From: Rhizophagus irregularis | Taxonomy: Eukaryota; Glomeromycota; Glomeromycetes; Glomerales; Glomeraceae | DNA: 64,000 nucleotides | Direction of reading: 5' to 3' | Assembly: GCF_026210795.1 (NCBI RefSeq) | Contig: NC_089453.1 | Span: 1,366,501 to 1,430,500 of the forward strand | Shown: positions 2,510-36,083 of the stretch, piece after piece | How the letters are laid out: each line of letters begins with the position of its first letter | Position numbering within the stretch: the first letter of the stretch is position 1 | Notes under the pieces: model-generated | What the model saw: only the letters and a program-made list of their open reading frames with translations | Database searches by the model: none | Told to the model about the DNA's origin: nothing | Translations under genes and position numbers: made by a program

Positions 2510-2930
2510 ATATATAGCAGGCTACAGTACCCCAAGTATTTTGCAAAAATTGGAGTTTGACCAGGATCCCGGATATCTAATATAAAGGTCATAATGGACT
2601 TTTGACCAAAAACACCCCGTTTTGCTGAAACTCAAAAAAACATTTTTTGTAAATATCTCAACATTCAGTGATTCAATTTTAATGAACATTTTTTTATTTT
2701 GTAGCCCTCATTTAACTCTACAATTTTAAAAAAAGATCATCAAAATTGGACTACTGGATGCTGAGATATTTACAAAAAATGATTTTTTGAACCCCTGAAA
2801 AATGGGCCAATCTGCCGAAAGTGTGACTTGATCCCGATCTGCCAACTCTTTCTTGTAGATTTTTGGTCAAAAATTTCGCGGAAGAAATTTTTACTCTTCG
2901 TATTAACACATCTCTTATTTTACTATTAAT

Positions 2931-5087
2931 ATGCCTCCCAAAGGTAACAAAAAAGCTGGCAATAATCCTAACGGGAGACTTGCCAAGCGACAAGACAAAC
3001 GAAACAAAAATAAAGACTCTGGCTCTGACGTTTCAAACTCTGACAACAAACAAACAAACAATAAAAACAACCCTTCCAAACGTACTCGTACGCTCCCAGA
3101 AAACCCTATGGAAGAAGACTACGTCGCTGACTCAGCGGCTGATGCTGGAGGCAGCAATACTACTCCTCCTCAACAAAATAATACTGACAATTTTTCGTCT
3201 CCTCCTCCCAAAGATACTACTGCGCTTTCTGCGTCTGGTTCTGTCGCGTCTGGTACTGACGCGTCCATGCATGCTCTAAAAGACAAAGAAAATTCCCCTT
3301 AGACGCGTCTCCTAATAAAGATATTATGGATACTAATGATACTTCTCCTCTTCCCCTTGACACGCCCACTATTTCCATTCTTAGGCGTGATTATTAGGCT
3401 GCTGCGGCGCCTAATACTTCTCCTGAATTTGTCAAAAAATATCCTACCAATCGGGCTATGATTGACGCTGTCAATAATCTCCTTTTAGAAACTTATCATT
3501 CTTACACTAGCCGTGCTCGCATGTCTGGTTCTGGTGACCTCAAAAGATTAGTCATTCATTTTAATTCAACCACTGAACGTGATGCCTGCCTTTCTTTCCG
3601 ACATGATGACCTTGCCGATCTCCGATTTTTCCTACATGACCCCAGCAACTCCGAACTGATGAAGATCTCTGGGCTATCCAAGTTACTGATATCCCATTTT
3701 TCATCAAAAAAGATGATATTACCGCTCTTTTCAAAAAGTATGGTAACATACAATCCTGTCATCTACATACACGTGCAAATGCTAAAGTTCAACAAGCTCG
3801 TATCATTTATGATGATGTTTCTTTCATCCAGCATTTTGTTGATAAGCAGTGGGTGATTTATTGCTACTCCACTTGTTTACGCATTACGCCATGTTCCCTC
3901 ACCCTTGATCAAAAGAAATCACGACGTGAATTTGTTGCTGTTTTATCTCAGCTCCCTATTAACACAAAAGATGTGCATTTAGCACCCTTAGTACAAGCAA
4001 TTGGCGCTATGGCCGTTAATATCCCCCTGTCTCTTAATTCTTACAAACCTAAACGATGGGCTTACATCACTTTTAAATCACAACAAATGATGGACACTGC
4101 AATGGAACAATCAATCGCCCTGCAAGGTCACAGACTCCAATGGGAACTACCGGAGAATACAAACAAGCTTTGCCATAGATGCGGCAAACTTGGCTGCGCT
4201 CCTGCCGCATGCCCATTGAACAACTCTTGAGGTCGTTCACACACCCGTAATCCTGTTGCACACTTAAAAGAATGCTTCAATATTGGACAATCGAATAACC
4301 ATAACTCTTCTGCTAATTGCAGTAGATATCGTTCCCGTTCTCAATCCAAAGATCATTCTAATTCTTGATAACGTAATCATTCTGCCAGTAATACTGGACG
4401 GAACAATAATAATACCAATAATACTTCTTCGCCCAATTCTTCTAATTCCAATAATTCTACTCAAACTGCTCAACGATCTCGATCTAATGAGCGTAAAGGC
4501 AAAGACCGTTCAGTTTCCTTTTCCACTTCCCAACGTACTAATAGTACCTCTGCTCACAACTCATTTAGTCACAAACCTCCCTTGGTGGATCCTAATTATT
4601 CCCAAATTCAAGAGATCCTTTCGGTGCTTAAAAACCTTCAAGAAGATATGGCTAATGTACGTGCTAGAATTCATGCTTTTGAATTAGCTGATCAGAGGAT
4701 GTCTCGGCTAGAACTTTATATTTTTGGACATATGCAAAACGATGTTCTCCCACCTGACCCTAATGATTGTTCACATATGCTTGTTAACAACCACCAAAGC
4801 ACCCCCCTTATATAACACAATCTAACCCGCCCACTTCGAACAGGTCCTTTTCCAGTCCGGTTCTCCCTCCCCCAATGGTCCCTGTTTCCCGTTCCATCAT
4901 TTCCTCCTCTCCCATCCCTGAAACTGCTGATGAAGCTACTATTAACAAAGAACGTGCTGAAATTTATTCCTTTCAACGATCTTTAGATAACAAATTCGAT
5001 CACTTATCTGGCTCTATTGAAAGATTTATTAGCTCCATTTCTGGTGGCCCTTCCTCAGACTTAGTCAATAAGACTTCGTCTGATTAA
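2931..5087 (+). pseudogene. LINE-A ORF1 (RRM-like, zinc-knuckle nucleic-acid-binding protein), broken
   Basis: The start at 2,931 (MPPKGNKKAG) is supported by the LINE-B copy, which begins at 23,712 with a similar basic, Asn/Lys-rich sequence. The first frame runs to a frameshift at 3,302; the rest needs at least three frame changes and has stops (for example at 3,396). Segments in order: basic low-complexity N-terminus; a conserved block FVKKYPTNRAMIDAVNNLLL; an RRM-like stretch (VTDIPFFIKKDDITALFKKY) read in another frame near 3,680-3,830; a second RNA-binding-like block KPKRWAYITFKS; a knuckle CHRCGKLGC at about 4,170-4,200; a Ser/Asn-rich linker; and a helical, possibly coiled-coil C-terminus (4,582-5,087). 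Such ORF1 proteins coat LINE RNA in the RNP. The copy is non-functional. Confidence 0.8.
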
Positions 5088-8000
5088 TTTGTTATCCTCC
5101 CCTTTTACCCTTCAAGAAAATAAAGTTCTGCAACAATCTTCAAAAATTAAATCTGCGAATTAATTTAAAATAATTAGTACAAATAATACTTCAATTTTAT
5201 AATACTTCAATTTAACTAATATCAATTAATTTACTTAATTTATTTAATTTAGATATATTTACAAGTAATACTATTTATTAGTAAATGCGCTAACTAATTT
5301 ACTCTTTTCTCTATTTGTTGTTAATGGTTTGAACATTGTTCCAGTTGGTTCGATTCCAACAAACAACTATTTAAATTTGCATTTAAGAAGTGCCCAGGAA
5401 CTTGTAGACCTACAAAAAGTAGAAAAGTAAAAACGTTCAGTTAGTTAGTAACGTTTCGTTAAGAAAAAAAACAAAATTTTAAAGAACTTCAAAGAATACC
5501 TTCAAAGTTCCCTTTAGATATCATCCAAGAAGTCGCAGACCTATAAAAAGAAAATACGTTAGTAAAGTTTCATTAAAAAAACAAAATAATTGAAGTTTCA
5601 AAACTTACTATTCCAAAGGTCCTAACCGATACCTCTGAGAAGTCGCAAACCTATAAAAAAAGTAAAGTTTCATTAAAAAAAAACAAAAAAATTAAAAAAC
5701 TTCGAAGAATACCTTCGAAGTTCTCATCCAAGAAGTCTCCTCCTGCTCTTGCACCAGCACCAGCTCCAGCTCCTGCTGAAGAACCAACCCCCACTGAAGC
5801 CCAGGCTCCCACTGAAGACCAGCACTGAATGATGATAAAAATTGATTTCTGTAACCGGATCAAGCATAAGACGAGGCTGTACTCAGATCTACAAAGAAGT
5901 TCTTATCCAAAAAGTCATGGACCTAAAAAAAGGAAACGTTAATTAGTAACGTTTCGTTAAATAAAAAAAAATAAATTAAAAGAACTTCGAAAAATACCTT
6001 CGAAGTTCTGTCCAAGGAGCTTTCTAGGAACCCGTAAATTTACAACAATAAAAGAACGAAAATGTTAGCAAACGTTTCGTTAAAAAAATTAAAAGAACTT
6101 CAAAGAATACCTTCGAAGTTCTTTCCAGGAACTTTTCTATAAAGCAGTGTTGGCCAATTTTATAAATCCAGTTATTTTAACTGGAAGCCGCAAAACTACA
6201 AAAGAAAGTCGAAATGTTAGTAAACATTTCGTTGGAAAATAAAAAAAAAGAAAAAATTTTGAAGTTTTACTTCAAAATTGTTAAATGGCTTCCTGTACTT
6301 ACAAAAGAAAATAAATGAAGATTTAGTTAAACGTTTCATTTTCATTTAAAGAAAATAATTTTGAAGGTTACCTTCAAAATTTTACTTTTGAAACTCCTTC
6401 AAGGAAAGCTGCGGACCTACAAAAAGAAAGAAACGAAAATGTTAACAAACATTTCGTTAAAAAAAAATAAAATAAAAATTTGAATTTTACTTTCGAATTG
6501 GGATTCCAGTTGAATTCCCGTACCTAAAAAAAAATAAATAAAATAAGAAACAACAAAAATAAAAAACAATAAAATTTCAGTTTTTTTTACCTTCGAAATG
6601 GGAATCCGAAAGATTAGGCGTCCACGATACGAATTGCGGATAAACGGATTGAAACACTAAGTCCAGGAACTGAAGAACCTAGAGAAAATGAACGAAATTA
6701 GCAGAAGGAAATAAGATAAAATGAAAAAAATAAATAAAAATAAAAAAATACAACCCACCCATCGTCTCCAAAGTCCAAAACTGAAGAACCTAAAGAAAAT
6801 GAATGAGATTAGCAGGAGGAAATAAGATAAAATGAAAAAAATAAATAAATATAAAAAAATACAACCCACCTGTCGTCTCCAAAGTCCAAAACTGAAGAAC
6901 TAAAGAAAAATAACGAAATTAACAGAAGGAAACAAAACAAAATGATAAAAAGGAAATAAAAATAAAATAAAACTCACCCTTCTTCTCCAAAGTCCAAAAC
7001 TGAAGAACCTAAAGAAGAAGAAAAACAAAATTAGCGAAAAATAATAAGAACGAAACAATAACAAAAGAAAAGAATAAGAATTAAAAAAAAGTCCCCTACC
7101 AGTTATCTCCAAAGTTCGGAACTGAAGGACCTAAAGAAAAAAAGGATTATCTCCAGAGTCCAGAACTAAAAGCTGGATAATCTCAATCCATTAGTAACAC
7201 AGATAATCTGGATAAAATCCTTCAATCCTTTTTATCCGATCCGTTTACAAAAATTTTATCTGGATAACCGTAAATACACCAGGACCTAAAAAAAGAAATG
7301 ATGAACGTTAGTAACGTTCATTAAATAAAAAATTTAAAAATAAAAATTTGAAGGTTTTTTTACCTTCGAAATAAGAGTTCAGAGCCATTCTTCGGCGTCC
7401 AGGACCTAAAAATTTGAAAAAACAAACGTAAGTAACATTCGTTAAAGTTAAAATATAAAAAAAACGAACATTACTGCTGTTCATTAAATTAAAAATAAAT
7501 TCGAAGGTTTTACCTTCGAAAATAAAGTCCGGAGCCGTTCTTTGGCATCTAGGACCTAAAAAGTCAAAAAAATGAATGTTAATAACGTTTGTTAAACATA
7601 AATAAAAGTCCGGAGCCATTATTTGGCGTCCAGGACCTAAATAAAATATAAAAATGAACGTTTAGCGACGTTCGTTAAATATAAATATAAAAAAATCGAA
7701 GGTAATGTTTTACCTTCGAAATTAACGTCCAGAGCCATTCTAAGGCGTCCAGGACCTATAAAATATAAAAACGAACGTTTAGTAACATTCGTTGAAATAA
7801 TAATTAAAAAAAAATTTGAAGGTAAAGGTTTTACCTTCGAAATTAACGTCCAGAGCCGGAACTTAGTTTCGGCTTCCTTTAACTAAAAAAAAGATGAAAC
7901 GTTAGTTAACGTTCGTCAATATAAATTAATTTTAAAAAAATTAATTTTTTTTTGAAGGTTTGTTTTACCTTCGATATAGGAGCCCGGAACTTAGTTTTGG

Positions 8001-9091
8001 CTTCCTTTAACTAAAAAAAAGACGAAACGTTAGTTAACGTTCATCAATAAATTTAATAAAAAAAAAATTAATTTTTATTTTTCAAAGGTTTGTTTTACCT
8101 TCGATATAGGAGCCCGGAACTCAGTTTCGGCTTCTTTTAACTGAAAAAAAAATGAAACGTTAGTTAATGTTCGTCAATAAATTTAAAATAAAAAAAAAAT
8201 TTATTTTTTTTTTCGAAGGTTTGCTTCACCTTCGATATAGGAGCCCGGAACTCAGTTTTGGCTTCCTTTATCTAAAAAAAATAAGACGAAACGTTAGTTA
8301 ACGTTCGTCAATAAATTTAATAAAAAAAATATTTTTTTTTTTTGAAGGTTTTACCTTCAAAGTAAAGTCCGGAGCTGTTTTTGGCGTCCAGGACTTCGAA
8401 AAAAAAATAAAATGAACAATAATACCGTTCGTTAAATAAAAATATAAAAATAAAAGTCTGTGAGCTGTTTTTCAGCGTCTAGGACTTAAGAAAAAAAATA
8501 AATATTCCTTCAAAATGGAGAGTCCAGAACATAATTTCTTGAAGTCTAACTTCAAAATGTCCAAAAGAAGGTACGAACTTCGTCAACTTCAAAGAAACTC
8601 AAAGCTTAAATAAAAACACTAAAAAATATTGACTAATTTTTTGGTATCTTTATAATAGTTAATTTTCTTTAAAAGATGGTGAAAAAAAAATATTTTCCAA
8701 AGTGTTGTAAGAAAAATTATTTTTTTTTTAAAGTGTTAAAATGTTGCAAAAAAAAAGCTTTGAAAAGTTTGTGTTAAAACAAATGCAAAGTTTATCAAAA
8801 TAAAAACTGAAAGAAAGTTTGTGAAGTTTATCAAATAAAAAAAAGAAAATGTGAAAATCTATTCAAATTTTTGATAAAATCTGCAATTTTGGAGATTATC
8901 GCAGATATTTATACAAAAAATTGTCATAAAAAATCGGAAACTTGCAAAATTGCAGATTATTGCATAACTTTGTAAAAAATAAAAAGCAGAAATCTGCAAA
9001 ATCGCAGACTTCCGCATAAATTCACAAAAAAAATGCGAAGATCTGCTAATTTTACAAATCTCCGCAGTTCTGCATCTTAAAAAATTTCCCG
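5088..9091. repeat. Minisatellite block replacing the LINE-A endonuclease region
   Basis: After ORF1 there is about 300 bp of AT-rich sequence including a tRNA-like T-arm at 5,344-5,360, then a tandem array from about 5,390 to 8,560. Units of roughly 90-130 bp carry a spaced palindrome (AACTTCGAAG...CTTCGAAGTTC), a second inverted motif (AACGTTAGTAACGTTTCGTT) and a conserved GACCTA word. The unit changes gradually along the array: early units have AAGTCGCAGACCTA, middle ones (6,660-7,150) have CCAAAGTCCAAAACTGAAGA, late ones CCAGAGCC...GGCGTCCAGGACC. The right end (8,870-9,080) holds clustered CTGCAAAAT/GCAGA words like those at the ends of the hAT-like element at 41,760. I found no clean TIR or TSD, so whether this is one inserted element is unresolved. 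Confidence 0.6.
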
Positions 9092-12000
9092 ATGCTAATG
9101 ACTTGGATAAGTTATGTCCAATTGATTTACTTGTCTTTGATGCTTGGCCTCTTAATCAGAAGTGTGAATATCTCCATTCCAGAATTATTAAAGTTGGAAA
9201 ATCTAATTTACCCTCAGTTACTATAGGCAATACTTATACTCCAAAGAAGCCTAAGAATCTGGAAAGTTTATGCCAATCTTACCGATTTTTGTCTAAAGTG
9301 GTTAAGACTATCCGTTTGCTTCACAGAAACCCTATTTTATATTCTGTTAGTTTTGAGACCAAATGGTCTTCTTATTATATATGTCTTAATAATCTCCTTT
9401 TTGTTTATAAACAAATCTTTGTTACTTCTATTATTCTTCCTCCTTTTCTTCGTGATGAATGAATTGATGATTTTGCTAATTTACTTCAAATATTAGAGAA
9501 CATGACTTTGCTTTTGCGAAGCCTACTTTTGCTTAAAGAAAAAGAATTCCAAGCTTCCTCTATTCAGGCAAAAATTGATGCTCGGAATGATAACTTTACC
9601 AATGATATCTCCACTTTTATTGAATCTGCCTTGTCACGAACCAGACGACGAATCATTCTTGATCGTGTTTTTATTGATCATCCAACACACTCTACCTTAT
9701 TAACTTCTCCAGATGCCATTGATCAAGAAGTTATTGAACATTTTCAAAACTTTGTTCCAATTACTTCCACCCCTCCTTCTTCCATACAGGATTTGCCTGA
9801 ACGATGGTCTAATGCTTATGCACCACTTGCTGATGTCTCTCCAGCTATTTTTGATTCACTTATAAATCCTCCTACTCTTGATGAATGGTTCTCAACAATT
9901 TCCTCCATGCCTAATGATAAAGCCCAGGACCTTCTATAATCTCGTATGAGATGTTAAAACACCTAGGTCCTTCTGCTTCTGCTCTGCTTTTCAACTTAAT
10001 TTGCGCCTGTTTATCAGACGCAAATATCCCTGATTTATGGAGACAAGCTACTGTCTTTCCTATTCCCAAACCGCACGAATGGAAATGCCAACTTGAAAAT
10101 ACTCGTCTTATTACTTTATTAGAGGTGATTCGTAAGGCCTTGGTTAAGCTCTTTTACAATCGTCTCGCTCCTCTGCTTGCTTCTCACCATGTTCTTCAAG
10201 GAGGTAATTTCGCAGGTTTACCTGGAGGTTTCTGCCATGATCCTATTATTACTCTAGAATCTATTATCCATGACTCAGTAGTCACCAAACAACCCTTATG
10301 GATCCTCTCTCAAGACATTTCAAAAGCGTTTGATTCTATTGATTTATCCATGTTGCGTTTTGCTCTTCAACGCTTACGTCTGCCTCAAAATGCTATTCAA
10401 TTCTTACTTTCTTTATTTATGTCACGTTCCAATCGTGTTATTACTGCACATGGCCCTACTCCACCATATAGAGTTAGAATTGGGATTGACCAAGGTGAAG
10501 TTATCTCCCCGCTCTTATGGGTTATTTATTTAGACCCTCTACTCACAGCTCTCAAAAATGAGATGAAAGACTCTTATTGTTTAGTTTCTCCAATGGCTTC
10601 TGATATTGTTTCATCAAACTCTTGTTCTCTGGATGTTTTAGAAATTAATAATTTGGTGTTTATGGATGATTCTACTTTGATTTCTTCTTCTAAAGAGAGA
10701 ATGGAACATATGTTGTCTATCACTGAAGAATTTTATTGTTTGAACAATACTTCAGCCAACCATAATAAATATGTTTTAGCCACCAATGCAGTTACCGTAT
10801 CTCGAGATTTATCTCCTGTGACCTTTAATTTGAGGACTTCATCACTCAACATTACGTCCAATATTACTGTTACTTTTATCCCTATGTCCTCATTTTTCTG
10901 TTTCTTGGGCGTTTGGTTTAATATTAACGGCTCTAGGAATTTTATCCGATAACAACTTAAACGAGAATGTAATTCTTTCTCTGCAACTCTCCGCCCTGCA
11001 AAATTGACTGTTCGACAAGTGGTATATCTCTATAATACTATTTTGATCTTGAAATTGGATTATCGAATGCAAGTCACGCATTTATCTGAGGTTGAATGTT
11101 CTACTATTACTTTTTCAGTTCGCGCCTTAGTTAAACACAAGGCCAAATTATCACATTCTGTTCCTAATGTGGTGTTATATTTAACACAAACCCTGGGTTT
11201 GATCAATTTATTTTCGTTTCAACAACAAAGTCATTTTACTAATTTATTTTTGTTAGCAAATACTTCTTCTGTTTTTATGAAATCACTTTTTAATTATAGG
11301 GTGCGATTTATTCAATTTTATTGTTTAATTCCTATTTCTCCTTTGATGGTTTTGGATTGGACTTGTTGGTCTTCTCTTATAATTTTTAAACAAGATTATA
11401 TTGCTAATACTTTAGCTTCATTGCTCTCAACCCCCTTCTGTCTGTTACGCACTAATTTATCGCCTGTGCCTGATTTAACTTACCCTAATGGCCATACTCC
11501 CATTTATCAATGTCTTTCTTTGGATGTATTCAAGACCAATTTAACAAGACTTCGAAAACGTGGCCTTTTTTACCTTTCACAACTTTTAACACCTCAGGGA
11601 ACACATTTACTCTCTTGGTCTGTCATATATGCTAACTCTATTCAAAAGCGTGGTAATGCCTGTCTTCCCAATTGGTACAAAAATCTTTCTGCTAACGTCA
11701 CGATTCCAGATAAACCTGGTTTATTGAAAGATCGATTTATGACTGAACAACGACCTGTGAGCCAGATTGCAAAAGAACTTGCTCCTTGTACTCCTCCTTC
11801 TAGTTATAAGAAGAATTGGATTATCACGATGAATGATGATGGCCTCCCTATATTCGGTAAACAGATTCAAATCCAACCCAAGCATTCTACTTGTACTATT
11901 GTACACTGGATTTCAGACTACTTATCTCGTCTGAGCGATTTTATTACTCTACAACCTTGTCCTGGCTGCATTTTAAATTTAAACAAATCCTCTTACATAA

Positions 12001-12421
12001 AGAAATCGGTTGCTACTAGTTCTGTGTCTTGCTCCTATTCGGTCTCTCTTTGTCGGTCATGGATTTTGCCTATGAAGAAATCATCCATTATGAATCACAC
12101 ATCCAGCCTGACTGCTATGGTGTCATGGGCGGAAATCATGGACTTTGTTACTTCAATTTGTAATCCTTCAGTTCGCTCGGTGCTTGCTGCTGATATTCCC
12201 AATATTTCCTATGATACTGTTGACATGGCTTCGCCTACTCCACATTTACTTATGGCTGGCGATGTTGCTGCATCATCATCGGTCGTGCTTTCTCCAGACT
12301 CACATTATACCTTTTACACTGATGGTTCTCTTATTAATTTAGGAACTAGTGATGTTTCTATGGGATGGAGCTGGGTTCAAATTGTCAAAGATTCTGGCTT
12401 TCTTAATTCCATTGCCACTTA
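9092..12421 (+). pseudogene. LINE-A ORF2 part 1: reverse transcriptase, broken
   Basis: Homology to LINE-B resumes at about 9,092. The frame has a stop at 9,460-9,462, a frameshift at about 9,930 (KAQDLL where LINE-B reads KAPGSS) and a stop at 10,951. RT blocks are clear: NDKA; ITLLEVIRKALVKLFYNRLA; LSQDISKAFDSID with the first catalytic Asp; IDQGEVISPLLW; and VFMDDSTLI, the catalytic box with FMDD instead of the common F/YADD. After the RT a long connecting region leads to the RNase H start, FYTDGSLINLGTSD, with its first catalytic Asp near 12,317. The ORF is then cut by the CACTA-like element at 12,421 and resumes at 20,334 in the same frame. Confidence 0.88.
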
Positions 12422-12457
12422 CACTGGTCAAAATTAATACTATCGGGTACCTATCGG

Positions 12458-14207: not shown

Positions 14208-14220
14208 CCTATCGGGTACC

Positions 14221-14841
14221 AGCATAGCGGACATCCCTATTTTATCACAATACTGTTGTTGATCATTTGCTGATCATTTATTCAATTATCACATAATATA
14301 AATACCGTTGCTAAAAAAATTTACATAATAATATATGCTTAAATTTCACAAATAATTTAAATTTAGTTTTAATTTATTGTGTATTAAATTTCGTTAGAAA
14401 CTTTTTAGCTTTTATTATTATTTGGCATATATTTATTCATTTTACGAAATTATTCACTAATTATGTTACTAATAAAAAACCTGCATTATGAATCAGATCA
14501 CTGCATTATTTTTTTTATAGATTCTACATAATATAAAGAATATTTGTGCAAATTCTTAAGTTTCGCACTCACATATTCATTTTCGCACTTTAATTTTTGT
14601 CTGATGATCAGCAATAATTAGTGAATTATCATATACAAATAATATATTTATAATATTATTAAAAATTGTGCTAATAATTATATAATTAAAGTCATATAAT
14701 AATTTAGTGTTTTACTTGGATTCCATTATTTTTTTGCCACATTATTTGAAAAATATTTGTGATTTTGCAATAAGTTTTTAAAATCCAGAATTAGTGATCA
14801 GCAAATGATCGGCAAGGTGATATGAGCATGTTCACTATGCT
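14221..14841. mobile_element. 621-bp element with 9-bp TSD TCGGGTACC
   Basis: The ends AGCATAGCGGACAT and (reverse complement of the right end) AGCATAGTGAACAT are imperfect inverted repeats, with further inverted words GATCATTTGCTGATCA inside. TCGGGTACC occurs at 14,212-14,220 and 14,842-14,850. A 9-bp duplication would suit a MULE-type element, but TCGGGTACC is also part of the host's subterminal repeat, so the duplication could be coincidental. The interior is AT-rich and non-coding. Confidence 0.65.
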
Positions 14842-21669: not shown

Positions 21670-21938
21670 TAGTGGGTGCGTCATTCGTTGTTTTGTTAGC
21701 ATAGTTGCTTCTACTTTGGTTGGAATATATCAAGGGGGGAGATCTAGGAAGTGTTAGTATTAGCGAATTTTTTTTTGAACTTTCTTTTAATTTTAATTTC
21801 TTTCTAGGAGACTATATAGCTTTGTTTTTAGTTAGTTTTTATTTTATTTTCTTTTTCTTATATGTAATTTTGTAAAGTTTGATAAATAATTAATAAAGAT
21901 AAAGGCTGCTATGCCATGTTTACTCGAAAGTGTGACTT
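21670..21938 (+). other. LINE-A 3' UTR and downstream target motif
   Basis: The 3' UTR includes GGGGGGAGATCTAGGAAGTG and ends TTAATAAAGATAAAGGCTGC, then ATGCCATGTTTACT. The same sequence closes LINE-B at 35,776-36,030. CGAAAGTGTGACTT follows at 21,925-21,938. Confidence 0.75.
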
Positions 21939-23595: not shown

Positions 23596-24217
23596 CCGAA
23601 AGTGTGACTTGATCCTGATCTGCCAACTCCTTCTTGTAGATCCTTGGTCAAAAAATTTCGCAGAAGAAATTTTTATCTCTTCATACTAACACAACCTTAT
23701 ATTCTACTACCATGACTAATAAAAGTGCTAATAAAGCTGGCAGCAACCCGAAAGGGGGCCCTGCTAAGCGCAAAGATAAACGAAACAACAATAATAACAG
23801 TCGATGTGCATGTCACAAAATTAGTGGGCAAATTTTTTATACTATGATATCATAATTTAAATTTCATATATAGCATGGTCTTTAGATATATAGTATATAT
23901 GTAAAGTTCTAAACTAGCCAAAGTTTTCTTTTTTGATTAAAATTACCGATCTTTAAATCATAATTTTGGCCAAAATTTTCTTAACTCTGGTCGAATTTAT
24001 AGTGCCGACCTAAAATTTAAAAAATACGCTAACTTCATTTTATGTTTATGTAAAATAAATCTTTTGTACTACAAAATCTGAGTACATTTCCTGATAGATG
24101 AGATCAAAATCTATCATTTTCAAGTATTTTTAATTTTATATATACTTCTTGTCAAAGAAAAGAATCACAGGTACTCAAAACTACCTAATTTCTGTAATAA
24201 ACTTTTACAATCTCAAT

Positions 24218-27200
24218 ATGAATAGCTTTTCAAAGTCTATAGACGATAATAATATTTTATTTGAGCAACTTTTAGGTGATAACAATTCAGAAGAAGAGCT
24301 AGAATATGATGAAACATTTTTAGAACAATTGATAAACCAAAATTCAATATTATTAGACGCTGAATCAAACAAACAATCTAATATTTTTCACATCAAAAAT
24401 TTTTTGCAGGCACATAAAACTGTTCGAAGTGAAGAAATAAATGAATATAATTCAAGTAGTGATGATGAAATTGACGATAATAATGAGCAAAGTTTAAAAA
24501 ATAAATCTGAATCACTTGAAAATGAAATATACATTATGGACGAAATGTCAACTTCCCTTTTACCATGTGCTATTGTTGACATAATTGATGGAAAATTACA
24601 AACATGCGGTAATGATAGTAAAAGATGTATTTCTCAATTAATAGGAACTTGGCAAATAGATACAAGTGTTGCGGCTAAATTTTTGGATGGGAAGGTTAAT
24701 TTAGGAGTGTGTATGTCGCATTTTAATTATGATCAAAAAAATCATATAAGTCATACTAAACAAATAAGAAAAACGGAAAAAAGTATAATATATCGAAGAA
24801 GGTATTTTTTTTGTGAGAAAAATTTCTACTTTTTTAGTCGTGGAATGAATTGCCGCCAACATTCTTGGAACATCTTTAATAGAAATATACAAGTAGCTTG
24901 CAATGGACAATTCAGTTGTAATACACTTGAAGTATGTCCGAAAGGATCCCGGATATCTAATATAAAGGTCATAATGGACTTTTGGCCAAAAACACCCCTT
25001 TTTGCTGAAACTCAAAAAATCGTTTTTTGTAAATATCTCAGCATCTAGTAATTCAATTTTAATGAACTTTTTTTTATTTTGTAGCCCTCATTTAGCTCTA
25101 CAATTTAAAAAAACGTTCATCAAAATTGGACCACTGGATGCCGAGATATTTACAAAAAACGATTTTTTGAGCCCCTGAAAAATGGGCCAATCTGCCGAAA
25201 GTGTGACTTATGACCTGTTTTGGAGATATCCGGGGTCCTTGTCCGAATATATCAAATTTAGCTAATGAGGAATTTTCAGATCCCTGATACATATGTTGCA
25301 GCTGTTTTGAAATCAATGGAGGGCATATTCATCGAAAAAATGGATCAGGAAAACCCAAATTCAATTGTGAAAATGATAAATTGCATGATGAAGATTCTGA
25401 TAAAATACTCATAGCATTAGCGAACTGGCTTCTTTTTGTTGTAAAAAATGAAAGTCAAGATAAAAAAGAAATTATTCTTACACATATGTTAAATCCTGCA
25501 TTACACTTTCTTCAAAATATAACATTGTCCAAAAACACTAAAAAAAATATCGATATGGAATCTATTTGTAATTTTGAAGAAATTCGTAGGTCATCAATAT
25601 CTTCCACCACCTTTACAATATCATCTATCAACACGGTATACATAGGATTAACAAGTTATATTCAATTACCTACTCTTTTCATGCTTCAAATTATTTTAAA
25701 AATGAATAAAATTTCAAATACAATTTCTTCAGAATTGTTTATTTCAGATGAACAATGGCCCGATGTAGGAAATAAATTGGCAGAAAGAATTTGGAAATCA
25801 AGAGAAGAATTGAATAAACAAAAAGCTGAAATTCAAAATCTGGCATCTCTTGAAAATTACTATTCAGCTTTTCCATCATATTTAACTGGATTTTTTGGAA
25901 ATCTATGTGGAGATATTTTAAAAAAAAAATTAGAGATATCAAATAGAAAGTCTAAATCTCGAAATAAACTATTAAAACAATTTGATGAACAGCAATTAAT
26001 AAAAATAGTAACTTTTTTTGTTTCAGTATTAATTGGAATTGCGTTTCCATACTTGCAAGTTTGGTTTACTCAAGTACTTTCGAGTCTTAGTAGAAAACCA
26101 AAACTCAATCAACAATTCCGACGTCTTCTTTCTACTTTGCAAATAAGTGGACATACAGACGGTCAAGAAAGAAAATTAGAAAAGGTTCGAATGAAATCCA
26201 TAAATCCATGTCAACGTCTTAATAAGAGTGAAAATATTTGGAATTTAGGTGTTATAGATAACATAGATTTTAAGGAAGCAACTTTTAGATATGGAAACAT
26301 ATTTGATACGACACGTACCAGTACACATATGACGCTCAGAATGGTTTTTCAACACCAAATGCCTTTTAATTTGTATGAAAATAAGAATGATGAAAACCAA
26401 AATAGTTCTCCACTTGAGTTATTTGGTATGAATCAAATGATAAGTAATACTTTGGATATTTTTGATTCTGTTTTAGATAACCTACTCAATGTTCAAATTA
26501 ACTCTCAAGGCATTGCAATTTATCAGACAAATTTTGACATGGCCATTGTACATGATGAAATCTTGAATCGTGTTGAACATAGATGTAAAGTAGAACCTCC
26601 AAATGTAGTTATTTTAGAACCTGGTGGAGTTCCAAATTCTGACGAGGGTATTTTTGAATCTTTAGAAATGTACAAAAAAGATTTTGAATTAACATCATAA
26701 CAGTATTTAGATGTAGTTGCTGATGAAGCAATATTTCAAAGAATAATTAAATTAACGGATCAATAGCCTTACCTGCGTCCTATTCTTGGGCAATGGCACA
26801 CGTCCAAGGATATGTGCAGTGTTTTGATTGTTCTTTTTTCAAGTTATGGAATTTTTGATCTTGCAAATTCACTTGGAGTTAAATTTTTGGAAAAATTGGA
26901 ATCTGTTGTTGATTATAGGTCCACTGTTCGTGTTCTTGAATTAATATGGACTGCAGTATCTTTAGCAATACGAATCTACATTAAAAAAAAAAATATTAGT
27001 AAGCATGAAATTTGGGAAAATGCAAATTTGGCGCTTCAAATTTGGTACCTTTACTATCAATGGGCCGGAATATTTAAAGCTCATCGTATTAGCATTCGAG
27101 TTGGAAATTATGATTTACAAAAAAATGCTTTAGCTGCATTTGGTGGTTTATTTGCTTCAGCAGCTAAAACTCAGTATGCTAGTTCTGTATGTCATTTTTT

Positions 27201-28094
27201 TGGTATTTTGAAAAAGTTTCCTAAACTAGAAGATAAATTGCGTTATGCAGCTTCTATTAAAATAGATAATAATGAAAAATGAAAAGGACATTTTTTTGCA
27301 TACGACGAAGCTCTGGAGACTTTTGGAGTGAAATTCATAAAACAAAATATAACAGGAAACGTAGTTAATATGGAAAATTTAAAAATGCAAATAAAATCAG
27401 TACAAACGGAACGTGATAGAATTGAAATCTTATTATCTGAATACCTCAATGATCCAACAGCATCTACCGGAAATCATGCAATAAATCAAAGATATGATGC
27501 AATGTGGAATTTAGTCTAAATTCTCCTCCAAGAATTTGACCAAACAAATGAATCATTTTTAAATAGTAATACGTGGAAAAATGTTTACCGATCACAACTG
27601 ACAGTTGAAGGAGTAATTCAACTTAAGAATTGCTTCTCTGATGGAATAGTCCGCATGCAAGCAATTTATTATGAAGATGTTCTTAAAACCAGACCAACTC
27701 AGCCCAGAAGAAGCAAATTGGGCACATCTAGATTAAAAATATTGAATTTTCAAAAAGAACTTAAAGAAGCAAAAGAAATAAAAAAACAATGGAACATTCA
27801 CAAACTATGGAATCACGATCACAGCCTCAAGAAGAATCTTCTGATCAACGTGACATTATAATGCAAGAACAACAAGAAAATGAAACAGGTAATAAACGTA
27901 AGTGAAAAGCTAAAAGGATTCCTAGTTTAGAAGAAGAAACTCTTTTAGAACCTTTAATTCTGAGTCAGAGTGAACCTACGAACGAAGAAATGAGAGAAAA
28001 ATTAAATACCTTATCAGATGAATGGGATTTAAGTCGAATTAAGCAACACGTCCAATACCAAAGAAAGAAAAGAGCAGTTGAAAATGCCCATTAA
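24218..28094 (+). pseudogene. Transposase-like protein of the 4.76-kb element, broken
   Basis: I take the ATG at 24,218 (MNSFSKSIDDNN) as start. Order: acidic N-terminus; a Cys/His-rich segment (SKRCISQLIGTWQ ... LGVCMSHFNYD ... FFCEKNFYFF ... MNCRQHSWNIF ... CNGQFSC ... VCP) that looks zinc-binding; the MITE at 24,943-25,239; a further CCSCF/NC segment after a stop near 25,287; a long helical region (LPTLFMLQ, WPDVGNKLAERIW, SAFPSYLTGFFG); GVIDNIDFKEATF, whose acidic residues could be catalytic; RPILGQWHTSKDM near 26,780; and a charged C-terminus ending at 28,094. Stops fall at about 26,698, 26,765, 27,280, 27,517 and 27,902. The LGQWH block recalls fungal DUF6589-type proteins, but that is a guess. 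A mobility role is inferred from its position within TIRs. Confidence 0.55.
24943..25239. mobile_element. Landing-pad MITE, intact copy, TSD TGTCCGAA
   Basis: Termini AGGATCCCGGATATCT and AGATATCCGGGGTCCT, flanked by TGTCCGAA at 24,935-24,942 and 25,240-25,247. Removing it rejoins the Cys-rich ORF in frame (VCP followed by NISNLANEEF). It contains an unoccupied CCGAAAGTGTGACTT at about 25,195-25,209. Confidence 0.9.
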
Positions 28095-29254
28095 TGCAGT
28101 TTAATATAGCTTTATTAACAATCATTACAAGTTATAATAAAGTTTTTGACAAGTTTAATATATATACATGTATATATATAAAATACAATGCCACTTTTCT
28201 TGAAAACTGTTGTATTAACAACTTTTGAAGAAAACATTTCTGGAAACAGCATAAAATATTACGGATATTTGAATATAAAATTTTTTGTTAGAAGTCGCTA
28301 AAGTAAAGAATCTCTCGAAAATATGTCAAAACGTACTAATCTTTATAGTGTATATAGATGTTATTACAAAGTTTTCACAAATAAAATAATACCTATATTA
28401 GGTTGAATAGGTATTTATTTACCAACTGAGATAATTTTTTTTGTTAGAAGAAGTATAACTTTAATCGTTTACAATACGTCAAAAGAATAGTGATTTACGG
28501 TAGTACAAGAATTTTAATTATAATTGGCATGTAAGTGTGACATGCACATCGACTGATAATAAAGACTCTGGCTCTGATGTTTCGAACTCTGACATCAAAC
28601 AAACAAACAATAAAAACAACCCTTCCAAACGTACTCGTACGTTCTCGCACAACTGGAACGAAAGGATTACGTCACCGACTCAGCGGCTACGTGGAGGCAG
28701 TAATACTACCACTCCTCCTTAACAAAATAATGCTGACAATTTTTCGTCTCCTCCTCCTAAAGATATTGCTGCACCCTCTGCGCCTGGTTCTGTCGCGTCT
28801 GGTACTGACGCGTCCATGCATGCTCTAAAGGACAAAGAAACTTCCCTCTTAGACGCGTCTCCTAATAAGGATATTATGGATACCAATGATACTTCTCCTC
28901 TTTCCCTTGACACGCCCACTATTTCCATTCTTAGGCGTTATTATCAGGCTGCTGCTGCACCTAATGCTTTTCCTGAATTTGTCAAAAAATATCCTACCAA
29001 TCGGGCTATGATTGACGCTGTTAACAACCTCCTTTTAGAAACTTATCACTCTTACACTGGTCGTACCCACATGTCTGGTTCTGGTGACCTTAAAAGATTA
29101 GTTATTCACTTTAATTTGATTAAAGAACGTGATACCTGCTTTTCTCTCCGACATGATGATCTTGCTGATCACAGGTCAAAAAGTGAAAAATTAGGCACCA
29201 ATCGGTCACCAATCAGATACCTGATTGGTGACCGATTGGTGACTGATTGATGCC

Positions 29255-30035
29255 TAGGGATGGTTAGGTCGGTCCTGGTCCGATCCTGGTCCTGGGACTT
29301 ATAAGTCCTATTGAACGGACCTGCGGACCAGGTCCTGACTAAGTTATTTATAGATTTTATGAATTTTAGTAATAATTAAATATAAAAAAAGTGAGTTGCG
29401 ATATCGGGATTCACTTTTTTATATTGATTTTATATAAAAAAAGTGAGTTGCGGTATCGGGATTCACTTTTTTATATTGATTTTATATAAAAAAAGTGAGT
29501 TGCGGTATCGGGATTCACTTTTTTATATTGATTTTATATAAAAAAAGTGAGTTGCGGTATCGGGATTCACTTTTTTATATTGATTTTATATAAAAAAAGT
29601 GAGTTGCGGTATCGCGATTCACTTTTTTATATTGATTTTATATAAAAAAAGTGAGTTGCGGTATCGCGATTCACTTTTTTATATTGATTTTATATAAAAA
29701 AAGTGAGTTGCGGTATCGCGATTCACTTTTTTATATTGATTTTAATATAAAAATGTGAATCGCAATATCGCAACTCATTTTTTATATGATTTTAATAATA
29801 TAAAAATTGTATTGCAATATTGCAGTGCACTTTTTTATAATTTATAATTACTTAAAATCAAATTTACAGCAAATTATACATATATAATTTAAACATATAG
29901 ATCTCTTATAACCTTATTGGCTAGGACTTTTTAGGACCTGGTCCGCTTCTGGTCCAAAATTTGGACCTAAAGATCTGCAGACCAGGTCCTAGGACCAGGT
30001 CTTTAGGTCCAGGACCTAGGACTTTACCATCTCTA
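29255..30035. mobile_element. hAT-like non-autonomous element with tandem hairpin core, TSD TTGATGCC
   Basis: Ends TAGGGATGGT and the inverted TAGAGATGGT, with TTGATGCC at 29,247-29,254 and 30,036-30,043. The subterminal regions are packed with GGTCCTGGTCC and its complement GGACCAGGTCC. The middle is a 52-bp tandem array. No ORF. Confidence 0.88.
29382..29750. repeat. Seven 52-bp hairpin units
   Basis: GTGAGTTGCG recurs at 29,391, 29,443, 29,495, 29,547, 29,599, 29,651 and 29,703. Each unit pairs AAAAAAAGTGA with TCACTTTTTT around a GGTATCG loop. Copies differ mainly by GGGATT versus GCGATT: the first four carry GGGATT, the last three GCGATT. One further unit lies inverted after 29,750. Confidence 0.9.
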
Positions 30036-30138
30036 TTGATGCCTGATTTTTCACTTTTCGACCTGTGATGATCTCTGATTTTTCCTACATGACCCACAGC
30101 AACTCCGAACTGATAAAGATCTTCGTGCTATCCAAGTT

Positions 30139-30434
30139 AGGACCCCGGATATCTAATATAAAGGTCATAATGGACTTTTGGCCAAAAACACCCCTTTTTG
30201 CTGAAACTCAAAAAATCGTTTTTTGTAAATATCTCAGCATCCAGTAATTCAATTTTAATGAATTTTTTTTTATTTTGTAGCCCTCATTTAGCTCTACAAT
30301 TTAAAAAAAAGTTCATCAAAATTGGACCACTGGATGCCGAGATATTTACAAAAACGATTTTTTGAGCCCCTGAAAAATGGGCCAATCTGCCGAAAGTGTG
30401 ACTTATGACCTGTTTTGGAGATATCCGGGGTCCT
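30139..30434. mobile_element. Landing-pad MITE copy with unmatched flanks
   Basis: A full-length copy (AGGACCCCGGATATCT to AGATATCCGGGGTCCT) with an unoccupied CCGAAAGTGTGACTT near 30,390. The flanking 8-mers differ (TCCAAGTT against ATTATACT), and LINE-B jumps across it from mid-ORF1 to mid-endonuclease. Confidence 0.85.
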
Positions 30435-33400
30435 ATTATACTTCTTTTCATTCTGACTTGGATTCTACTAAACACGGCCGTTCTTCTGGTGGTGTTTCTT
30501 TGTTTATACACAACTCTTTAGCTACTCATGTTCAATTTTATTAATCGCATTCTTCACGAATTCTTTCTGTAGACTTATTTTTTAAAGGCAATGTTAAATT
30601 GCATATATTTGTTGTCTATATTTCCCCTACAAATGATCTTATTCTTCGTTATGAAGTTATTGATCAATTAATTTCTCTTATTTCTCAAACTTCTTCACAA
30701 AATTTCATCACGCTATTTGCGGTGATTTTAATATAAATTTGGAGAAATATTACCCTATATTTTTGCATCAACCTCAGATTGCTGCTAAACGTATGCATAA
30801 ATTATTTCATTATTTACTTTCTCATAATTATGAAAACTGCATCCCCCTTAATTTGTCCAGTACCTTATTTAGGTACTTATCATCACTTGGATACTATTAC
30901 CCGAATTGATTTTGTTTGGTCTTGTCCGCTTCTTCGGTAATATATGTTAACTGCTTCCATATTTGACGCTTATGATATGCATATCTTCGACCATAATCCT
31001 ATTATCACTTATTTTGACGCTTCCTTATTATCAGATGCTATTAAATCTGCACGTGTTCGTCAACTTGGTCGTAATACTTGACGTATTTTCAAATTTGATT
31101 CTATCTCTACTGATCAATGGTCTGCTTTTGCTGTTGAGTTGGACAATTTATGTCCAGTTGATTCACTTGGGTTTGATGCTTGGCCCCTCAATCAGAAGTG
31201 TGAATATCATCATTTTAGGATTATCAAAGCTGCTAATTCCACATTATCTTCAGTTACTGTGGGCAATACTTATATTCCGAAGAAGCCTAAAGACTTAGAA
31301 AGTTTATGTCAGTCTTACCGTTTTTTGTCCAAAGTGGCTAAAACTATTCGTTCTCTTCACAAAACCCCTACATCATATTCTGTTCATTATGAAACTAAAT
31401 GGTTTTCATATTATATACGTCTTAATAATCTCCTTTTTTTTTATAAAAATACCTTTGTTACGCCTATTACCCTTCCTTTTTTTCTTTGAGATGAAAGAAT
31501 TGATGACTTTGCTAATTTACTTCAAACGTTAGATAATATGACTTTGCTTTTGCGAAGCCTTCTCTTACTTAAAGAAAAAGAATTCTAAGCTTCTTTTATT
31601 CAGGCTAAAATTGATACTCAGAATGATAATTTCACTAATGATATTTTTACTTTTATTGAATCTGCTTTGTCACGAACTAGACGATGAATTGTTCTTGATC
31701 GTGTTTTTATAGATCATCCATCACACCCTACTTTATTTGACATCTCCAGATGCCATTGATTAGGAAGTTATTGAACACTTCCAAAATTTTGTTCCAATTA
31801 CCTCCACTCCTTCTTCTTCCATATAGGATCTGCCTAAAAGATGGTTTAATGCGTATGCGCCACTCACCGATGTCTCTCCATCTATTTTTGATTCACTTAT
31901 GGATCCTCCTACTCTTGACGAATGGTCTTCAACGATTTCCTCCATGCCCAATGATAAAGCCCCAGGATCTTCTATGATCTCATATGAGATGTTGAAACAC
32001 TTAGGACCTACCGCTTCTGCTCTTCTTTTTAACTTAATCTGCGCATGTTTATCAGACACAAATATTCCTGATTTATGGAAACAAGCTACTGTCTTTCCTA
32101 TTCCCAAACTGCATGAATGGAAATGCCAACTTAAGAATACACGCCCTATTACTTTATTGGAGGTGATTCGTAAGGCCTTGGTTAAGCTTTTTTACAATCG
32201 TCTTGCTCCTCTACTTGCCTTCCACCATGTCTTCCAAGGTGGTAATTTTGCAGGGTTACCTGGAGGATCCTGCCGTGATCCTATTATTACTCTAGAATCC
32301 ATCATCCATGATTCAGTAGTCACTAAACAACCTTTATGGATCCTTTCTTAAGACATCTCAAAAGCATTTGATTTTGTTGATTTATCCATGTTGCGATTTG
32401 CTCTCCTACGCTTACACCTGCCACAAAATGCTATTCAATTCTTACTCTCTTTATTTATGTCACGTTCTAATCATGTTATTACTGCACATGGCCCTACTCT
32501 GCCATATAGAGTTAGAATAGGAATAGACCAAGGTGAAGTTATTTCTCCACTTTTATGGTTATTTATTTAGACCCTCTGCTCACAGTTCTCAAATATGAGA
32601 AGAAAGACCCTTATCGTTTGATTTCTCCAATGGTTTCCTGTACTGTTTCATCGGATTCTCGTTCTCTTGATGTTTTAGACATTAACAATTTAGTGTTTAT
32701 GGATGATTCTACTCTGATCTCTTCTTCTAAAGAAGGAATGGAACATATGTTGTCTATTACTGAAGAATTTTATTGTTTAAACAATACTTCAGCCAACCAT
32801 AACAAATACGTTTTAGCCACCAATGCAGTTGCTGCTTCTCAAGATTTATCTTCTATAGCCTTTACTTTATTGATTTCATCACTCAATACTACACCCAACA
32901 TTACTGTTACTCCTATTCCTATGTCCTCATCTTTCCATTTTCTGGGAGTTTGGTTTAATATTAATGGCTCTAGGAATTTTATTCGACAACAACTCAAACA
33001 AGAATGTAATTCATTCTCTGCAACTCTTCGCCCTGTGAAACTAACTGTTCAACAAGTGGTATACCTTTATAATACTGTTTTGATCCCGAAACTAAATTAT
33101 CAAATGCAAGTTACGCATTTATCTGAGGCCAAATGTTCTACTGTCACTTCTTCAGTTCGTACTTTGGTTAAACACAAGGCTAAATTATTACGCTCTATTC
33201 CTAATGTGGTGTTATATTTGTCTCAAGCTTTGATCAACTTATTTTCGTTTCAACAACAGAGTCATTTTACTAATTTATTTTTATTAGCAAATTCTTCTTT
33301 TTTTATGAAATCTCTTTTTAATTATAAGTTGCGGTTTATTCAATTTTATTGTTTAATTCCTATTTCCCCTTTGATGGTTTTGGATTGGACTTATTGGTCT

Positions 33401-35775
33401 TCTTTTAATATTTTTAAACAAGATTATATCGCTAATACTTTAGCCTCCCTGATCTTCACTCCCTTCTGCTTATCACGCGCTAATTCGTCGCCTGTGCCTG
33501 ATTTAACTTATCCTAACGGCCATACTCCAATATATCATTGCCTTTCTTTGGATGTGTTTAAGGCCAATTTGACACGACTTCGAAGGCATGGCTTATTTTA
33601 TTTGTCACAACTTTTGTCACTCCAGGGAACTCATTTGCTCTCTTGATCTGTTATTTATGCTAACTCTACTCAAAAACGTGGTAATGCCCGTATTCCCAAC
33701 TGGTACAAAAATCTCTCTTCTAATGTTACTATCCAGGATCAAGTTGGTTTATTGCAAGATAGATTTATAACAATACAGCGCCCTCTGAACTAGTTTGCTA
33801 AAGAACTAGTTCTTTGTACTCCTCCTTCTGGTTATAAGAAAAACTGGATTGTCATGTTGAATAATGATGGCCTCCCATTATTTGGTAAACAAATTCAAAT
33901 CCAACCCAAACATTTCACTTGTACTATTGCACATTGGACTTCTGACTGTTCATCTCGACCAAGCGAATTAGTATCCCTTCAACCTTGTCCCGGCTGCAAC
34001 TTGAATATGAATAAATCATCTTACTCAAAGAGATCAGTTGCTATTAGCTCTGTTGCTTGCTCCTACTCGGCTTCTCTTCTTTAGTGCTTGATCTTGCCTA
34101 TGAAGAAGTCATCTATCATAAAACACACATCTCATTTATCTGCTACAGTGTCATAGGCTGAAATTATGGATTACGTAACCTTGTATTGTAATTTATCCAC
34201 TTACTCTGGGTTACCTGTTGATACTTCTTGCCCTTCCCTTGATACTGTTGACGATATTCCGCCACCTTTACTCACGGCTAATGATATTGCTACATCTTCA
34301 TCTGTTGTGCTTTCTTCAGATTCGCTTTATACCTTTTACACTGATGGTTCCTTTATTAATTTAGGAACGAGTGACGTCTTCATAAGTTGAGGTTGGGTTC
34401 AAATTGTCAAAGATTCTGGATTCCTTAATTCCATTGTCACTTATAAACGAGGTATTATCTGCGACTGGCCTTCCTCCTCTCGAGCTGAAGCTGCTGCTAT
34501 TTATGCAGCTTTATCTGCCTCTCCTGCAAATTCTGTTGTTCAGATTTACACAGATTTACAATCTTCTATTGAGGGTTTGAAACATTGTTTCTTATCTGAT
34601 TATTCAAATTCTCAACTTTATTATAAGACAACCAATTTTGAACTTTGGGCTATCATTCAAAAACTGATTGTTGATAAAAATCTTTCAGTTTTGCCTTTCA
34701 AAGTTAAAGCTCACTCTAATTTTTATTGGAATGACTTCGCTGATTCTCTTGCCAATACTGCCTATATATCTAAAAATGCTGTTCTTATCTCTCATCTCAA
34801 TCTCACCGTGGTCATGATTATATTTTGCTCTATGATGACGTGATCTGTGAATCCAATCCAAGATATTTGTTTAAACAATATCATCAAATGTTATATATGA
34901 AAGACCTTTTAGCTCTTTCTCGTTTCCGTTTTACTTCTCTCTTAACGGATTCATCTCAGTACATGGTTGATTGGGCTTTTACCTGACATACATTAATGTT
35001 CCAACCTAAATCTGACAATTCTTTCACTAATGAGAATGTTTCTAGACACCATACATTGAAATTTCAACTTTTCCTGGAAGATTTACTCACTTTAGAATTA
35101 CTGAAAAGAACATGACCTGATTTATACGTGGAAATTCTAACCTGTCGCTCTTGTGAAGATCATTTAGAAGATTTTATGCACTTATTTTTGTGCAAAAAGC
35201 GTCATGCTAAATTACATCAACTTTTGACATCATATCTCCATCACCTTACCCTAAAAATTAAAGAAGTGGGTAATAATGCCAATTGTGATTACTCTTCTTA
35301 AATTGATAGAATTACTTTCCTCCCTTGTTGGACTTTCTCGTCTAGTAACTGGTCCTACTATAGTCTAGTTCGTGGCTGTTTGCCTGCTGCCTTTCTGGAA
35401 GTTTTCAAAAGCTTAGGTATTCCTCGCCTCACTGCTATGAATGTGGTTGCTGCCATACATAACAATTTTGTTAACAAATTCCATAAATGAATTTGAAATC
35501 TGCGTTCGTATGATAAAGGTTTATGGGAACATGCGATAAACATTACTTCAAAACTTAAACAATCTTCAAGATCTAAAGGTTTGTCCAATTCTTCTTATTT
35601 ACCTTATTCGTCTTTACCACCTCTGACCCATGTTGATTCACATGACTCCAGAACCGATTGGTTAAAAAACTTGATGCAATATGAATTATCTTGGTTTAAT
35701 TACATTTCGGGTTTTATGGGTCGTCTAACGGTGCTACTTAATAACCGCTTTTGCAAGATGGAGTGTCAATTTTAA
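30435..35775 (+). pseudogene. LINE-B ORF2: APE endonuclease, reverse transcriptase, RNase H, broken
   Basis: The endonuclease lacks its N-terminus. RSSGGVSLFIHN, then CGDFNINLE (catalytic Asp/Asn motif) near 30,725, then RIDFVWS near 30,910 and FDHNPIITYFD near 30,990 (the SDH-type box with the catalytic His) identify an APE-type nuclease. RT blocks: NDKAPGSSMISYEML, ITLLEVIRKALVKLFYNRLA, the active-site block DISKAFDFVD just after a stop at 32,350, IDQGEVISPLL and VFMDDSTLI near 32,695. RNase H: FYTDGSFINLG near 34,337, SSRAEAAAIYAALS and VKAHSNFYWNDFADSLAN. The C-terminal Cys/His segment ILTCRSCEDHLEDFMHLFLC is present. More than ten stops and frameshifts are visible, so it is inactive. Confidence 0.88.
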
Positions 35776-36083
35776 TAGTGGGCACGTTATTTGTTATTAT
35801 GTTAGTATAGTTGCTTCTACTTTGGTTGGAATATATCAAGGGGTGAGATCTAGGAAGTGTTAGTATTAGCGATTTTTCTTATGAATTTTCTTTTAATTTT
35901 AATTTCTTCTTAAAAGACTATATAGCTTTGTTTTTAGTTAGTTTTTATTTTATTTTCTTTTTTCTTATATGTAAATTTGTAAAGTTTGATAAATAATTAA
36001 TAAAGATAATGGCTGCTATGCCATGTTTGACCGAAAGTATGACTTATGACCTGTTTTGAAGATATCCGAGGTCCTGTTTGACC

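Follow-up and report, generated by a model that had tools for sequence, protein, structure and literature searches.

How do two long interspersed nuclear elements (LINEs) and a third element come to lie end to end inside a single miniature inverted-repeat transposable element (MITE)? This arrangement is found in a 64,000-nucleotide stretch of Rhizophagus irregularis DNA (assembly GCF_026210795.1, contig NC_089453.1, positions 1,366,501 to 1,430,500), hereafter the window, in which LINE-A, element X and LINE-B follow one another in this order between the halves of one MITE, with a copy of the same short motif after each. We conclude with high confidence that the array consists of target-primed insertions that have stacked up at a single defined position in a multicopy MITE. 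LINE-A and LINE-B belong to a subfamily designated alpha. Its sister subfamilies act likewise on other targets, beta in a repeat upstream of a gene carried by a Maverick/Polinton-like element and gamma in the terminus of a CACTA-like MITE.

The alpha target site and its occupants

The window was searched for the motif CGAAAGTGTGACTT with at most two mismatches, and the result was compared with that for 100 shuffles. Seven matches were found against 0.31 expected, a number reached in 0/100 shuffles. Four of them, at 2816-2829, 21925-21938, 23597-23610 and 36032-36045 (the last with one mismatch), lie at the element ends where a sequence-only reading of the locus had placed them, and the ends given there for LINE-A, X and LINE-B proved correct. 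The outer limits of the split MITE are 2563 and 36075. The 8-bp duplication GTTTGACC, reported in the same reading as a pair 33.5 kb apart, is present on either side (2555-2562 and 36076-36083) and encloses the entire stack. Two further exact copies of the motif, at 25196 and 30391, are each located inside an uninterrupted MITE nested in LINE-B, and the motif is therefore MITE sequence. Both LINEs are decayed and heavily interrupted: their blocks are 84-94% identical to a full-length 8.15-kb relative (L188), and much of the 19 kb of LINE-A and the 12 kb of LINE-B consists of nested insertions.

In the genome (146.7 Mb, 32 contigs), the 14-mer motif occurs exactly 352 times, compared with one occurrence of the reversed control pattern. 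The element that carries it has the properties of a MITE, i.e., a length of 296 bp, AGGATCCCGGATATCT/AGATATCCGGGGTCCT terminal inverted repeats, 8-bp duplications and many copies. With at most two mismatches, approximately 341 uninterrupted (empty) MITE sites and 390 left junctions were counted, so most MITEs are still free.

Forty alpha 5′ ends were found, of which 30 loci were fetched and their junctions classed by eye, while for the 3′ ends 40 of 254 candidates were scored and 30 loci fetched; these sets comprise the best-scoring copies and may therefore be biased toward young alpha elements. Twenty-eight of the 30 5′ ends lie at the MITE site or at a regenerated copy of it: 25 follow the left part of the MITE, split after CCRAAAGTGTGACTT or a close variant, two come after the 3′ end of a LINE and the motif, and one after X and the motif. 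The other two are L018, which starts in the opposite MITE arm at the junction of AAAAGTCCATT and ATGACC, and L022, in unrelated sequence. One of the 25 (L026) lies in a rearranged MITE, in which a MITE end is followed by a second partial target.

At the other end, the alpha LINE (...CATGTTTGCC) is joined to CGAAAGTGTGACTT followed by ATGACCTG of the MITE. Most of the 30 3′ ends continue into ATGACCTG...GGGGTCCT, the right end of the MITE; in the others, the motif is followed by X or a LINE. The 3′ junction of L060, which is within the MITE, is altered. The alpha 5′ end joins the other copy of the same ~14-bp stretch. Since both ends join copies of one stretch, the site is left in duplicate after insertion, and the regenerated sites hold further alpha LINEs or X elements. 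Plainly unrelated sequence was seen by eye at the 3′ end of L053 alone among the 30 loci. L053 is the 3′ end of the L022 copy, an off-target insertion that lacks the motif and carries its own duplication TAAAGCTATTTTAA.

Extraction of LINE copies with their flanks thus gave what the sequence-only reading had led us to expect, mostly the MITE split at the motif, with occasional stacks. Copies in unrelated sequence are not the majority (1/30 5′ ends, and L053 among the 3′ loci), and the motif is not part of the LINE, because 341 uninterrupted MITEs carry it and the L022/L053 copy is without it. The proposal that each insertion regenerates the site by duplication, allowing elements to stack, is upheld by the LINEs and X elements found in regenerated sites. 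The view of this MITE as the dedicated landing site of the LINE holds for alpha (28/30 5′ ends) but was too narrow, given that there are three subfamilies with three targets, and that X uses them too.

The 8-bp duplication of the MITE was also compared across insertions. Nineteen copies had both ends; 15 were entered, 13 of which were readable, and L018/L040 (opposite arm), L022/L053 (no MITE), L034/L048 and L036/L042 (X follows) were left out. The duplications were identical in 11 pairs and differed at one position in another, so that 12 of the 13 testable pairs agree, compared with 0/156 mismatched control combinations agreeing to within one base. A MITE on contig 1 holds two LINEs of opposite orientation, one per arm (L018/L040 and L020/L050), and is flanked by TCAGAGAT at each outer end.

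With regard to mechanism, the APE-type (apurinic/apyrimidinic) endonuclease of the LINE would introduce a bottom-strand nick at the 3′ junction, from which reverse transcription would be primed, and the top strand would be cut ~14-16 bp away. The LINE end TTTGCC resembles TCTGCC, the upstream half in the MITE, and the right-hand copy after insertion retains the downstream half of the target; this likeness may help the site to be used again.

The features of the stack are collected in Table 1.

Table 1. Coordinates of the stack and of the MITEs within it (positions in the window).
Feature	Position	Strand	Basis or remark
MITE 8-bp target duplication, left copy GTTTGACC	2555..2562	+	sequence; matches 36076-36083
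Alpha-target MITE, left part, ending in LINE target CCGAAAGTGTGACTT (2815-2829)	2563..2829	+	93.6% to uninterrupted MITE 24946-25241
LINE-A, subfamily alpha, decayed	2830..21924	+	88-93% to full-length alpha copy L188
LINE-A blocks	2831-3331, 3393-5110, 9093-12421, 20334-21921		remainder not LINE-alpha by blastn (nested insertions)
LINE-A domains	RVT_1 in 9951-10949; RNase_H in 20218-21669
Target duplication CGAAAGTGTGACTT between LINE-A and X	21925..21938	+	motif search
Element X, own 5′ and 3′ ends, interrupted at ~22868-23247	21939..23595	+	91-95% to X copy L194
Target duplication CCGAAAGTGTGACTT between X and LINE-B	23596..23610	+	motif search, sequence
LINE-B, subfamily alpha, decayed	23611..36030	+	84-94% to L188
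LINE-B blocks	23612-23794, 28558-28881, 28943-29174, 30070-30139, 30435-36029		remainder not LINE-alpha by blastn (nested insertions)
Target duplication CCGAAAGTATGACTT (one change), end of LINE-B	36031..36045	+	motif search, sequence
Right end of the same MITE with terminal inverted repeat	36046..36075	+	36031-36075 is 93% to uninterrupted MITE
MITE 8-bp duplication, right copy GTTTGACC	36076..36083	+	sequence
Uninterrupted MITE with empty LINE target 25195-25209, in an insertion inside LINE-B	24946..25241	+	TGTCCGAA on both sides
Second uninterrupted MITE with empty LINE target 30390-30404, inside LINE-B	30139..30434	+

Several of the nested insertions have structures of their own. The 7.9-kb insertion at 12422-20333 in LINE-A contains 81-bp tandem units (~16177-19960) and 130-bp units (12746-14023), and is bounded by ACACTGGTCAAAATTAATACTATCGGG-like inverted repeats resembling a gamma-type terminus. 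LINE-B contains an insertion of ~890 bp, bounded by ATCACAGGTCAAAAAGTGAAAAATTAGGC inverted repeats, with a 52-bp tandem repeat at 29312-29883. At 24149-26700, two open reading frames (ORFs) of an unclassified insertion in LINE-B are parted by the intact MITE with its 8-bp duplication TGTCCGAA; a Pfam search with these ORFs gave no match above the cut-off. Around the MITE at 30139-30434, no matching 8-bp flanks were seen. Outside the stack, a two-mismatch match to the motif (TGAAAGTGTCACTT) is located at 60596-60609, and there are two likely host genes nearby, encoding an FGAR amidotransferase of purine synthesis (53453-57586) and a Band 7 protein (58950-59561). The purine-synthesis enzyme has a full-length reading frame ~17 kb from the stack.

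Sister subfamilies, their targets and element X

A census of LINE 3′ ends was performed with the last 30 bp of the LINE, allowing at most two mismatches and using the reversed pattern as a control. This gave 223 occurrences and none (0) for the control. A non-random draw of 100 of them (91 exact and the first nine with one mismatch) was assigned to targets as follows: alpha 33, beta 37, gamma 26 and other 4. Of these, 78 were classed by script (alpha 12, beta 37, gamma 26, other 3) and the remaining 22 by eye (21 alpha, including one left-arm insertion, plus 1 other).

Full-length beta (L186) and gamma (L187) copies share 66-74% DNA identity with alpha and with each other in aligned blocks, and the order of blocks is common to all three. 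Representatives of the subfamilies (P0059, P0006 and P0037) are less similar to one another in the endonuclease (64-72% identity) than in the reverse transcriptase (RT; 73-81%). An Exo_endo_phos_2 domain (APE-type endonuclease) was found in the beta copy, RVT_1 and RNase_H in both the alpha and beta copies (RNase_H E-values 5.7e-12 and 6.3e-10), and RRM in ORF1. The endonuclease, the RT and target duplications of ~14-16 bp are those of an APE-type LINE, and the RNase H is in line with the initial description of the element as an APE-type RNase H LINE. A search of solved structures with the sequence of the beta endonuclease piece gave no match.

The RT of the beta copy L186 is up to 98% identical to R. 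irregularis proteins, and nearly all of the 120 listed RT relatives are Rhizophagus proteins. In an RT tree of 99 rows, built by a quick method that left many forks open and omitting the broken gamma copy, the alpha copy and the beta copy belong to different clades (SH-aLRT 99 and 100). The best matches to fragments of the gamma copy are in a third clade (support 99), beside which 22 R. clarus proteins form a clade. A fourth clade comprises P0035 and its relatives (five R. irregularis rows).

The 3′ ends of beta LINEs are joined to TTGAYAAGGACTGAT followed by GACSATGTCACTTGG. The sequence after this junction was scored in 40 copies of 107 candidates. Among the 15 copies read that had not previously been recognised as LINE neighbours, one (L139) has a LINE end and 14 are LINE-free at the site; in the latter, the site forms the final unit of a repeat array that precedes an ORF start. 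The downstream ORF was seen in three longer stretches and translated in one. Of the five 5′ ends read, two are in the array, one is after a LINE, one is after X, and one (L148) is elsewhere.

The element hosting beta is a many-copy element of more than 12 kb; two places compared are 95% identical across 12 kb with no end reached. Its proteins gave matches above the cut-off to Pox_A32 (E 2.7e-10) and DNA_pol_B_2 (1.3e-6), and matches to rve and 2C_adapt, both of which were below the cut-off. Maverick/Polinton elements encode a DNA polymerase B, a packaging ATPase and an integrase, and carry terminal inverted repeats with a 6-bp duplication; judged by its predicted proteins, the host of beta is called Maverick/Polinton-like. 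Gag- and protease-like frames are also present there, perhaps as part of a different, nested element. Downstream of the beta target, a gene at L141:470-973 with a weak, virus-like 2-cysteine adaptor match (below the cut-off) is nearly identical in the three copies read; the element is many-copy and fungal.

CACTA/EnSpm elements have CACT... termini and a 3-bp target duplication. The target of gamma is CACTA/EnSpm-like in that its empty copies have CACTGGTCAAAAACC ends (CACTGGTCAAAAACC...GGTTTTTGACYAGTG, 295 bp in two measured copies) and 3-bp duplications (TTT, TAT, TGA and TAA in 4/4 empty copies). The gamma site is the last ~16 bp of this MITE. All 20 gamma 5′ ends read (67 candidates) are preceded by TTGGTTTTTGACCAGT or a close variant of it; judged by eye, 12 of them are at the end of the palindromic element, five after a LINE and three after X, while a looser script applied to the same ends gave 13 MITE, four LINE and three X. 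The 3′ ends are TGGTTTTTGACYAGTG, followed by mostly variable sequence. One such MITE is occupied at both termini, by a gamma LINE on the left and by a short LINE 3′ end on the right, and has TAT on both outer sides. In L215 and L218, judged by eye, the gamma site is followed directly by ORF2 sequence, i.e., these are 5′-truncated LINEs.

Element X starts with GATCATCGTACTTTCTC and ends in its own tail. The ORF list contains no ORF of 200 aa in the copy in the window. That X might be the 3′ end of the same LINE gained no support: no blastn match to the three LINEs was obtained at E 1e-3. Of 83 candidate X 5′ ends, 40 were scored and 15 read by eye: nine are at the alpha site, one at the beta site, two at the gamma site and three elsewhere, including L197, which carries its own duplication. 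X is probably non-autonomous; having no long reading frame, it would be moved in trans by these LINEs.

Repeated insertion and its alternatives

Tandem LINEs at 8.2-kb steps (e.g., C23:3202411, 3210604 and 3218801) are what unequal crossing-over between duplicated motifs or LINEs might also produce, and some arrays may have grown in this way. As the origin of the stacks in place of repeated insertion, however, this process is improbable. The 15 LINE-LINE stack junctions compared (10 beta, 5 gamma) are mutually different, apart from two beta junctions that are nearly alike, which favours repeated insertion, and LINEs and X are mixed in the stacks.

It is very unlikely that a LINE entered a MITE once and that MITE and LINE were then copied together by a DNA transposase. 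Such composites would likewise be flanked by 8-bp duplications, and the MITE ends are present. However, the alpha 5′ junctions are variable (extra G, A, AT or AAAA; starts at query base 7, 12 or 15), and the divergence of the MITE arm is uncorrelated with that of the LINE start (Mantel r 0.08, p 0.31; a weak test of low power on 24 of 25 copies, L012 having been dropped because its downstream sequence is not LINE-like); both observations speak against the spread of a single composite. In addition, one copy lies in the opposite arm of a MITE that is also occupied at the usual site, another lies outside any MITE with its own duplication, beta and gamma behave alike in unrelated host elements, and the truncated gamma LINEs start exactly at the gamma site. 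More than one type of LINE junction per host element was observed, which refutes this explanation for the family. With varied 5′ junctions, an off-target copy with its own duplication and a MITE with both arms occupied, the insertions look independent.

That the LINEs land widely and are kept only in MITEs or other junk is scarcely credible: in a genome about half of which is repeats, according to the accessible part of PMC11075540, random insertions would often strike a repeat, but the insertions are found at one position within a few bases rather than scattered across the MITE, and there is one such motif in each of three different host elements.

Several observations weigh against repeated insertion at dedicated sites. 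One pair (L030/L043) of the 13 fails the duplication test, one of the five beta 5′ flanks (L148) is outside the Maverick-like array, and four of the 100 3′ ends are elsewhere (L053, L081, L100 and L128), although L081 and L100 start like the beta site for a few bases. X is less strict, with three of its 15 copies in unrelated sequence. The 5′-end loci were the best-scoring copies, and the draw of 3′ ends left 123 unread. ORF2 is broken in the fetched full-length alpha and gamma copies and has a frame change in beta, and the gamma-clade endonuclease P0037 had no sequence match to solved structures at E 0.1. Finally, the autonomous transposases of both MITEs were not found; for the gamma MITE no partner was sought.

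Precedents and meaning of the three targets

Tx1L of Xenopus laevis, a member of the Tx1 clade, is specific for the DNA transposon Tx1D, and its endonuclease was reportedly the subject of work by Christensen et al. in 2000. Like the LINEs described here, Tx1L is a LINE of the APE type whose dedicated site is within a DNA transposon. It differs from the present system, which comprises three sister subfamilies with three unrelated DNA-element targets in a fungal host, and in which the LINE carries an RNase H domain, insertions stack and a non-autonomous follower is present. Elements of the Tx1 clade are not known to have an RNase H domain after the RT, whereas the present LINE has one. Related R1 families differ in their targets, and the known targets of the R1 clade are rDNA, telomeric repeats and similar sequences, not DNA transposons, unlike the targets found here. 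The APE-type endonuclease and the site specificity ascribed to R1-clade LINEs in the available part of PMC4640811 are shared by the present LINEs. One lineage with several multicopy targets is also seen in Dada, in which every family has a multicopy target of its own and the surroundings of the insertion sites are similar (PMC8869645, in part); Dada, however, is a DDE DNA transposon that targets RNA genes.

The sequence-only reading suggested that this LINE would be a second natural case of a LINE parasitising a DNA transposon, and that the habit might spare host genes. In the accessible parts of three reviews (PMC5035012, PMC4640811 and PMC8869645), LINE targets already include transposons or other transposable elements, as well as rRNA, tRNA and snRNA genes, spliced leader exons, telomeres and microsatellites. 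The portion of PMC11075540 available to us lists CR1-Zenon, L1-Tx1, L1-R1, R2-Hero, RTE-BovB and I among the LINEs of R. irregularis, and its survey also includes MITEs and Maverick. The present elements are probably among these LINE families. LINE target sites are not given in that portion, and the terms "target site", "site-specific", "nested" and "tandem" do not occur in its main text. Within the parts accessible, no report of these target sites was found in PMC10640383 or PMC3706591, or in the open-licence literature on Rhizophagus or arbuscular mycorrhizal fungi and target-specific LINEs. LINEs that target transposons have precedent in Xenopus Tx1L; no example of a single clade using three kinds of DNA element as targets was found in the open-licence literature.

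We consider it likely that a Glomeromycotina LINE lineage and its non-autonomous followers diversified by moving between DNA transposons as dedicated homes, including the promoter-side repeats of a virus-like Maverick. Target switching among the subfamilies would have come with changes in the endonuclease or nearby parts. Three natural target specificities are available within a single clade of one genome, together with more than 100 readable junctions and with off-target and opposite-arm insertions, which makes target change by an APE-type endonuclease directly testable. An explicit hierarchy of mobile elements is also evident, with X and LINE on MITE or Maverick. If the proposed diversification is correct, each subfamily is a parasite of a parasite, and the splitting of host termini, subterminal sequence or promoters may act as a brake on the host elements. 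The wider significance is that, within a single genome, one LINE clade has three DNA elements as its dedicated targets.

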